Assembly (NCBI RefSeq): GCF_024499055.1
Contig: NZ_CP071249.1
Span: 1,465,001 to 1,529,000, forward strand
Direction: 5' to 3'
DNA: 64,000 bases
Origin: Turicibacter bilis
Lineage (GTDB): Bacteria > Bacillota_I > Bacilli_A > MOL361 > Turicibacteraceae
The notes under the pieces were generated by a model, which had not been told where the DNA came from, made no database searches, and was given only the letters and a program-made list of their open reading frames with translations. This document shows, in pieces, positions 38,072 to 40,891 of the stretch. Position 1 is the first letter of the stretch, and every line of letters starts with the position of its first letter. A program made the position numbers and the translations under genes.

Positions 38072-38923
38072 TTAGTTATTAATGATAATAGTCATGCGGT
38101 CTTTCCCATTTAAGTCTTTTAATGTTTCAAACTTAGAATTAGGAAAATGTTGCTTCACTAATTCCGCCATTGCTTCTTTATGGTTATATGCATGTTCAAA
38201 TGCAATAATATTTTTCTCATTTACAACTTTATGAGCATCTTTTAAAATTTGACGATAGAATTTTAATCCATCTTCTCCACCAAATAACGCTAAGTGTGGT
38301 TCATTATCTTTAACAAGTGGATCCACATCTTCAGTTAATGGAATGTATGGAGGATTTGATACTAGAATATCAAACTTTAATCCGCGTTCAATTAACGGTT
38401 GTAACATATCTCCTTGATAGAATGTTACATTTGCTCCTAAATTAGAAGCATTTTGTTTCGCAACTTCTAAAGCGGCCTCTGATAATTCAGTCACCGTTAC
38501 TTCCATATTCGGTTCTTCAACTGCTAAAGTAACACCAATCGCTCCACTTCCTGTTCCTACATCGACGACCTTAACAGGAGCACCATCAAATACATCATCA
38601 TAAGTTGATAAAACATTAGCCACTAATTCTTCCGTTTCAAAGCGTGGGATTAAGACATCATCATTGACAATAAATTTATGTCCAAAGAATGTTTCGTATC
38701 CCATAATGTGTTGAACAGGAATATTTTGTTCAACATATGTTTTAACACAGCGCTCAAATTCTTCAACTTGTTCCACTGGCACTTGCATATTCATATCGGC
38801 TAAAATCTCATAACTTTCTTTCCCAGTTACATGCATTAATAATAATTTAACAGCCGAATCTTCTTTTCCATTTTCAAGGGCGTAATCTTCAGCCCATTTT
38901 AACAATTCACGCATTGTTTTCAT
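38072..38923 (-). CDS. prmC: Release factor glutamine methyltransferase PrmC (HemK)
   Basis: 283 aa from the ATG at 38923 (GGTGA upstream). N-terminal helical domain, then the SAM site VVDVGTGSGAIGVTLA (about 108-123) and the catalytic NPPY in ILVSNPPYIPL. It methylates the Gln of GGQ in RF1 and RF2, both encoded in this window. Usually it follows prfA directly; here 800 bp with the C-loop hairpin array separate them. Confidence 0.95.
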   Translation of the reverse strand: MKTMRELLKWAEDYALENGKEDSAVKLLLMHVTGKESYEILADMNMQVPVEQVEEFERCVKTYVEQNIPVQHIMGYETFFGHKFIVNDDVLIPRFETEELVANVLSTYDDVFDGAPVKVVDVGTGSGAIGVTLAVEEPNMEVTVTELSEAALEVAKQNASNLGANVTFYQGDMLQPLIERGLKFDILVSNPPYIPLTEDVDPLVKDNEPHLALFGGEDGLKFYRQILKDAHKVVNEKNIIAFEHAYNHKEAMAELVKQHFPNSKFETLKDLNGKDRMTIIINN

Positions 38924-39289
38924 CTTTATCACCGTCTTCTTAAAATCAACCATCATTTTACTCTAAAATGCTAAAACATGCAAATAAAATTTTTTACAAC
39001 TTATCTTGGATTATTAGATATGAAAGCATACACTCACTCTGAAGAATATGAATCCTAATGATATAACTCTCTCCTATAATAAAGATGCACCTTCATTCTA
39101 TTATGGAAGATATCCAATCTTTCATGGAACCATTTAGGATATGATACATATATTAGAATTAGATGTAGCAAGGAAATCAGTAGTTAAGTGTAAAATTCAC
39201 ACCACTATTTTGTTCATACGACTTTTATAATAAATAATCTTAACTTTTTTACATAAATTACGTTTAAAATTCATAGTACTGGTTCATAA
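38924..39289. other. Gap upstream of prmC, no recognised feature
   Basis: AT-rich, with no ORF, tRNA or clear terminator. It must hold the prmC promoter on the minus strand, but I cannot pick one out. A TATAAT hexamer on the + strand at 39290-39295 begins the next region. Confidence 0.4.
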
Positions 39290-39622
39290 TATAATTGTCC
39301 GTAAGACGAGAACTTACGGGCATACTCTTCCCCCCCATATAAAACTTTATTTCATTACTCATTTCTCTCCCCAATTTTTAAAGTTTTATTTTTCATACTC
39401 TCTCCTTATAATTCTCTCCCAAAGTATTTAATACTTTACTCCCTCGATTATGGTAAAGACTTTTTCTGAGCCTACTCTCACCCCCCCAAGAGAGACTCGA
39501 GGGAAGATGACAATTCAATCCCCCCATTGAATTGTCATCACAATTAAGACTGTAAAGGTTCCCCCCCTTTACAGTTTCTCCTAATTTTTAAAAAAGCGCC
39601 CCTCCCCCGGGCGCTTTTTTCT
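39290..39622 (+). ncRNA. Candidate structured RNA: array of hairpins with C-tract loops and C-rich linkers
   Basis: No ORF. On the + strand a -10-like TATAAT (39290-39295, no good -35) precedes, in order: CCGTAAG/CTTACGG (39299-39319); ATAAAACTTTA/TAAAGTTTTAT around a loop with CTCTCCCC; AAAGTAT/ATACTTT; CCCTCGA/TCGAGGG enclosing CTCTC-ACCCCCCCAA-GAGAG; a perfect 14-bp stem GATGACAATTCAAT/ATTGAATTGTCATC with a six-C loop (39505-39538); ACTGTAAAGG/CCTTTACAGT with a C-rich loop; and AAAAGCGCCC/GGGCGCTTTT plus T6, a terminator. Nearly every loop or linker holds CUCUCCC-like sequence complementary to GGGAG/GGAGG ribosome sites. Strand of transcription is inferred; on the minus strand the loops would be G-tracts. 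Confidence 0.5.
39594..39622. terminator. Strong bidirectional terminator closing the C-loop array
   Basis: GC-rich stem GCGCCC/GGGCGC with A-run before and T6 after on both strands; loop CTCCCC on the + strand. Confidence 0.85.
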
Positions 39623-39676
39623 ATTTCTAGACTTATATAAATAAATTTTAAGATAATCATAAAGTAGAGAATAAAT

Positions 39677-39712
39677 AAAAAATCTAACTTCATTTTGAAG
39701 TTAGATTTTTTA
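39677..39712 (-). terminator. Terminator after prfA
   Basis: Perfect 16-bp stem AAAAAATCTAACTTCA/TGAAGTTAGATTTTTT with a 3-nt loop, 10 bp from the prfA stop. Confidence 0.95.
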
Positions 39713-39722
39713 TTTAATATCA

Positions 39723-40787
39723 TTAGTCTTGAGCGGCTAATTTACGTTTTTGTTCTTCTGTAATTAAAGCTTCAACAACTGGCTCTAATTTACCTTCCAT
39801 AACGCGGTCTAACTGTTGGATAGTGAATCCAATACGGTGGTCAGTGACACGGTTTTGTGGATAGTTGTAAGTACGGATTTTTTCAGAGCGTTCACCTGTT
39901 CCGATTTTAGAACGACGTTCTTCACCTTCAGCCTCTAAACGCTCTTGTAAGATTGAATCATAGATACGAGCCTTTAATACTTTTAAGGCATTGGCTTTAT
40001 TTTCGTGTTGTGATTTTCCGTCCTGACATGATACAACGATTCCAGTTGGAACGTGAGTTAAACGTACCGCTGATTTAGTTGTATTTACTGACTGTCCTCC
40101 AGGTCCTGATGAACAGAAAGTATCAACACGGATATCATTCATACTTACTTCGATATCTACATCTTCAGCCTCTGGCATAACTAAAACAGTTGCTGTTGAT
40201 GTGTGGATACGTCCTTGAGATTCAGTGGCAGGGACACGCTGTACACGGTGTGCTCCTGATTCATATTTCATGTGAGAGTATACACTTTCACCTGAGATCA
40301 TGAACTCAACTTGTGACATCCCTCCAGATTCAGAGTAGTCAACGTTCATGACTTGAATTTTCCATCCTTTTACCTCAGCATATTTTGTATACATACGGTA
40401 TAAGTCTGATGCGAAGATATTTGCTTCATCTCCACCCGCAGCTCCACGGATCTCAACGATTACGTTTTTCTCATCGTTGGGATCTTTAGGAATTAATAAG
40501 ATTTCTAAACGCTCTTCTAATTGTGGAAGGCGTGGTTTTAACTCTTCTAATTCCATTTCGGCCATTTCACTAATTTCTGGATCAGAGTCTTTTGCCATTT
40601 CTTTTAAATCTTCAATTGAAGCTGCAATTTCTTTATATTCAGTATACACATTAACTGTCTCTTCAAGACCACGTTGTTCTTTTGATAATTCAGTTAATTT
40701 TTTAATATCAGTAACGATTGCAGGATCAGCCATCATTTCGTTAATTTTTTCATAACGCTCTAAGATTGCCTCTAAACGTTCAAACAT
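39723..40787 (-). CDS. prfA: Peptide chain release factor 1 (RF1)
   Basis: 354 aa from MFERLEAIL at 40787, with a strong AGAGGAGG site; a longer frame adds 20 residues upstream of that site. Anticodon-like PAT motif in RVPATESQG and GGQ in [10 protein letters not shown]. Reads UAA and UAG. Downstream of dnaB by about 100 bp and closed by its own terminator. Confidence 0.97.
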
Positions 40788-40891
40788 AGTCGAATCCTCC
40801 TCTAATTGTTCATTCCTAATTATAATATAAGTCAAACGTATCGTCAAAATGTGTTTTATGTAAAACGCATCTTAAACTTAGATGTTTTTTA

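Follow-up and report, generated by a model that had tools for sequence, protein, structure and literature searches.

In the LhrC1-5 RNAs of Listeria, G-rich Shine-Dalgarno (SD) regions are bound through CUCCC sites, of which there are three, redundant with one another: one in a loop, one in a linker and one in the loop of the terminator (PMC4132741), and in NfeR1/ar14 three hairpins with divergent stems each hold an anti-SD motif, the redundant sites occluding ribosome sites (PMC10746234). UCCC motifs that bind SDs in Firmicutes are further found in RNAIII, RsaE, SprD and FsrA (listed in PMC4132741). An array of C-looped RNA hairpins in the complete 2.79-Mb genome of Turicibacter bilis (G000), within the 64,000-nt stretch of DNA that was analysed (the window; Table 1), has the structural attributes of an anti-SD sRNA, being a conserved, structured RNA predicted to expose SD complements.

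As with LhrC, the host is a low-GC Gram-positive, the RNA is G-poor and present in several copies, and redundant CU-rich sites are placed in loops, linker and terminator; unlike LhrC, there are about eight sites compared to three, and the 3' hairpins covary. LhrC was absent from the Rfam matches, weak ones included, though the Rfam copy may hold no LhrC model. With the ar14/NfeR1/cuckoo RNAs (CcsR) of the alphaproteobacteria (RF02344) the array shares several hairpins with a C-rich unpaired motif (here P5, P6, P7, and the terminator), but the Turicibacter RNA belongs to a different phylum, is about three times longer, has a motif of C5-C7 or CUCUCCC with the ar14 motif, CCUCCUCCC, absent from the Turicibacter sequence, and, at 34.1 bits, stays below the gathering score of 58.8. 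The 6C RNA (RF01066) of the actinobacteria has two hairpins with C-rich loops, a shared trait, but here too the Turicibacter RNA falls below the gathering score (25.9 bits compared to 47). RNAIII, RsaE, SprD, and FsrA gave no Rfam match to the Turicibacter RNA and have fewer C-rich sites per molecule. Across the window nothing in Rfam reached threshold, in keeping with the preliminary description of the array as a possibly undescribed RNA. Due to the below-threshold ar14 and 6C scores, the missing ar14 motif, and the lack of an LhrC match, the RNA is filed under neither ar14 nor LhrC; it apparently represents a new family within a known functional kind and has an unusually large number of sites, and, by analogy, its mechanism is most likely like that of LhrC or ar14/NfeR1, with homology to neither implied.

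Table 1. Predicted features of the C-loop array (window coordinates).
Feature	Position	Strand	Observations
Promoter-like block GTTTAA-N17-CATAATATAAT	39262..39294	+	kept upstream of copies
Predicted RNA, about 327 nt	39296..39622	+	fold z, conservation, covariation
Helix P1 (39296-39305 with 39313-39322)	39296..39322	+	10 pairs, 3 doubly changed among copies
Linker C-tract CUCUUCCCCCCC	39325..39336	+	unpaired in predicted folds, 6 of 6 genus copies
Helix P2 (39339-39349 with 39379-39389)	39339..39389	+	near-invariant, covariation silent
P2 loop, 29 nt, exposes CUCUCCCC	39365-39372	+	
Invariant core AUUUUUCAUACUCUCUCCUUAUAAUUCUCUCCC	39388..39420	+	reverse complement is SD-spacer-AUG
Short helix P3	39421..39437	+	in every genus copy
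Helix P4 (39440-39447 with 39497-39504)	39440..39504	+	encloses P5; double changes in 9 pairs of P4 and P5 together
Helix P5 (39475-39479 with 39490-39494), loop ACCCCCCCAA	inside P4	+	
Helix P6, perfect 14 bp, loop CCCCCC	39506..39539	+	double changes in 6 pairs
Helix P7, loop UUCCCCC	39549..39575	+	3 doubly changed pairs; 5 counting outer pairs
Intrinsic terminator, loop CUCCCCC	39590..39620	+	3 pairs doubly changed between genera

The array stands at 39290-39622, where the preliminary description had placed it, with the promoter-like block beginning outside these limits, and it is flanked, again as described, by prfA (39723-40847) and prmC (38072-38956), both on the opposite (minus) strand. 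The plus strand of 39296-39622 reads as a stand-alone non-coding RNA gene, with transcription predicted from sequence. Overlapping the promoter-like block is a direct repeat of 23 nt (39184-39206 and 39258-39280), imperfect at 78%, which may be the relic of a lost tandem copy. Immediately past prfA there is a 26-nt inverted repeat (39667-39721), probably the prfA terminator, which could serve both directions.

The plus strand is predicted to fold at -94.6 kcal/mol, compared to -45.7 +/- 3.6 kcal/mol in dinucleotide shuffles (z -13.4; 0/100), while the z for the minus strand is -7.1. Eight main helices make up the predicted fold, rather than the seven stems originally counted, and C-tracts are exposed in five loops plus the single-stranded linkers. 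A C-run had been ascribed to every stem, which is correct for most but not for P1 and the short P3, whose adjacent C-tracts are linkers; the perfect 14-bp stem with its six-C loop and the closing terminator were both recovered. Outside the stems the array is nearly free of G, as first reported, with the 157 unpaired bases divided amongst C (62), U (58), A (34), and G (3). Complementarity to G-rich SD sequences is shared by CUCUUCCCCCCC, CUCUCCCC, CUCUCUCC...CUCUCCC, and four C-loops, the motifs that the fold exposes. In nearly every copy the predicted fold leaves the C-tracts single-stranded, and predicted folds from G004 pair the P4 region differently.

Using a DNA search, the RNA was found in all of the Turicibacter-genus genomes searched (5/5) and in a genome of the sister genus (G006), with two copies in tandem in G004 and three in G006. 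One G006 copy is located next to prmC at a contig end and two are next to prfA at the start of another contig, positions from which all three probably lie between prmC and prfA. No copy turned up in the two remaining family genomes, G005 and G007; in both, prmC follows gpsA. The suggestion that the array was inserted between prfA and prmC is unsupported, as the arrangement is common to Turicibacter and the sister genus, with the gpsA-prmC order occurring in a more distant genus of the family. Amongst 395 genomes of the class, covariance models built on each half of the RNA (5' and 3') had no convincing match outside the family; the weak matches inspected were ordinary terminators or unrelated sequence and were rejected as distant homologues. 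No match was found in the phages and plasmids searched.

The promoter-like block accompanies the copies, and a C-looped terminator closes most of them; in the prmC-side G006 copy the terminator loop is not C-rich. P2 is missing from one G006 copy, P3 is missing from one G006 copy, and in G002 the C-loop of P6 is lost (now CUUC). The core is identical across the genus and in one G006 copy and near-identical in a second, while G006c has an altered core spacer with the CAU and CUCCUU retained. In G000-G004 and G006, the promoter-like block that precedes the copies reads GTTTA-N17/18-(C/T)ATA(A/C)T. A sporulation sigma-G promoter was not assigned; the SASP promoters, based on our own reading of upstream sequences, have the pattern GTATW-N17-CATATTAA, similar to GTTTA-N17/18-CATAMTA but distinct from it, and the assignment is further weakened by G006, which possesses the RNA yet no Pfam SASP. 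Alpha/beta SASPs (Pfam) number seven genes in each of the four Turicibacter genomes searched and none in G006, with its three RNA copies. A regulon defined by the promoter pattern was dropped, with few extra matches that were inconsistent from genome to genome.

Amongst representative distinct copies, a hand count identified double changes in 24 stem pairs (P1, P4-P7, and the terminator), and stem mismatches read on the plus strand comprise seven G-U and one A-C, a 7:1 excess of wobbles that therefore marks the plus strand as the RNA strand. As the hand-counted arms were picked by eye, P4 included, an independent count on an alignment of P6, P7, and the terminator (A3) weighs more; in this alignment 94.8% of cells pair, compared to 35-50% with the partners slid, both sides have changed in 27 cells compared to 9.9 in shuffles, and none of 500 shuffles matched the covariation score. 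P2 hardly varies and the alignment gives no covariation evidence for it either way. Compensating stem changes and retained C-loops, which the preliminary description had proposed to look for in related genomes, are both present. Between species, the 5' half of the RNA is 98-100% identical, compared to 82-89% for prmC and 87-92% for prfA, while the 3' half is 68-84% identical with the stems and most of the C-loops retained. The frozen 5' core spans about 140 nt, with a CAU at SD distance. From sequence comparison, this looks like two constraints, one on sequence in the 5' linkers and loops and one on structure in the 3' stems.

Read as its reverse complement, AUAAGGAGAGAGUAUGAAAAA, the core makes up a full start site; the P2 loop yields GGGGAGAGAAAUG. 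The reverse complement of the G000 RNA contains three SD-spacer-ATG sites, where shuffles give 0.5 (p 0.015). Several relatives resemble G000 in this, but the count is not significant in G004a, G006b, and G006c. Exposed segments have a median of -15.0 kcal/mol with initiation regions and -9.3 kcal/mol with coding windows, a preference that is expected of any C-rich sequence. On SDs, the core pairs only modestly better than its own shuffles (RNA-bearing genomes, z -1.0 to -1.8; G005, z 0.0), and no single G000 gene has extended complementarity to it (<=3 mismatches over 20 nt). The 16S tail found in G003 is the ordinary CACCUCCUUUCUA.

Approximately one gene in 10 in the sampled G000 stretches has a G-run SD (GGGGG, often AGGGGG) replacing AGGAGG. 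In these stretches plus the window, AGGGGG occurs in 30 of 338 initiation regions, compared to 0.5 expected from coding sequence. G-run SDs account for 9-12% of sampled genes in four RNA-bearing genomes and 3% in G005, which has no RNA. Genome-wide, the control-subtracted AGGGGG/AGGAGG ratio at start sites points the same way, with 0.22-0.48 for the six genomes that carry the RNA and 0.10-0.13 for the two family members that do not, while some unrelated genomes of the class reach 0.3. These statistics draw on stretches of about 240-424 kb per genome plus genome-wide pattern counts, and, as all genomes with the RNA fall into one clade, the SD contrast amounts to one evolutionary comparison and does not prove co-evolution. 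Between species, G-run SDs are kept no better than other SD types. It is doubtful that the RNA is a near-global initiation regulator, with a core that mimics the complement of a consensus start site and a preference for a separate, co-evolved class of AGGGGG-SD mRNAs.

The reading that we favor, with a probability of roughly two in three, is that the approximately 327-nt structured plus-strand RNA is a multivalent, trans-acting anti-SD repressor of translation initiation. In its favor are the conservation and tandem copies, the covariation and wobble bias, the exposed C-tracts, a 5' half more conserved than the flanking genes, the better binding to initiation regions, the G000 start-site count, and the G-run SD contrast; LhrC (PMC4132741) and NfeR1 (PMC10746234), which are built alike, silence their targets by occluding the SD. 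Against it stand the core's modest advantage over its shuffles, the lack of a single extended G000 target, and the ordinary conservation of G-run SDs. Transcription of the plus strand would start near 39296 and stop at the terminator (39620), the stems would hold about eight C-rich sequences open, and these would pair with G-rich SD sequences on many mRNAs, the invariant linker pairing additionally with the start codon. Such pairing would block 30S binding and turn off the translation of many genes. We infer that the RNA is transcribed and stable, and that it pairs and represses in vivo.

The C-tracts could instead gather a binding protein for single-stranded C/U-rich RNA, of the cold-shock, KH, or Hfq type, much in the way that repeated GGA loops let CsrB-type RNAs gather CsrA. 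Many near-identical short sites on divergent stems are the usual look of a protein sponge, and a core without a single extended mRNA target in G000 is consistent with one, but the 5' core, frozen with its CAU at SD distance, would be left unexplained, and the best-known C-binding candidate, Rho, is absent by Pfam from G000, G005, and G006 (no RNA-binding domain PF07497, found in 9 of 14 control genomes). A sponge or decoy for Rho itself is excluded, as the host is without Rho by Pfam, and a sponge for another protein seems unlikely. It is also quite improbable that the RNA is a dedicated antisense regulator, its 5' core pairing with one or a few leaders while the C-loops stabilize or assist. 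A specific pairing partner predicts the near-invariant 5' half, and long duplexes are predicted between the 5' core and a permease (G000 1453682-1454341) and its orthologues (-21.4, -31.2, and -28.3 kcal/mol), but the search at <=3 mismatches over 20 nt returned no G000 target, and the C-loops are retained while their own stems diverge.

The preliminary description had considered both strands, and a multivalent C-rich RNA on the plus strand is preferred to G-tracts on the minus strand based on the wobbles, the fold z, and the promoter-like block with its terminator. A minus-strand element (hairpins with G-tracts, or small ORFs read in the direction of prfA-prmC) would match the strand of prfA and prmC, the SD-ATG motifs there, and the minus strand's own good fold, but it is highly improbable given the 7:1 G-U bias, the promoter-like block and terminator that follow the plus strand, and, in our reading of the alignment, the single-base indels that shift the frames of minus-strand ORFs between species.

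For the anti-SD repressor, candidate targets were ranked from 148 ORFs with orthologues in the sampled stretches of three species, with starts assigned by a simple script. Amongst the candidates whose predicted duplexes are best conserved are a binding-protein-dependent ABC permease and a neighbouring ATPase, a xanthine/uracil-type permease, a bifunctional aldehyde/alcohol dehydrogenase, glutamine synthetase and an adjacent ANTAR-domain protein, dihydroorotate dehydrogenase, and a phosphoribosyltransferase. The nitrogen and nucleotide flavour of these candidates, several of which are close chromosomal neighbours from a partial sample, is only a lead.

A literature search on regulatory RNAs of Turicibacter found no paper, and the regulatory RNAs of this common gut genus seem little described. 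If the anti-SD repressor reading is true, a conserved, structured RNA that exceeds the compared families in anti-SD sites per molecule would be present in every genome of the genus examined, and whether one RNA can discriminate amongst mRNAs according to the type of Shine-Dalgarno sequence they have would be directly testable.
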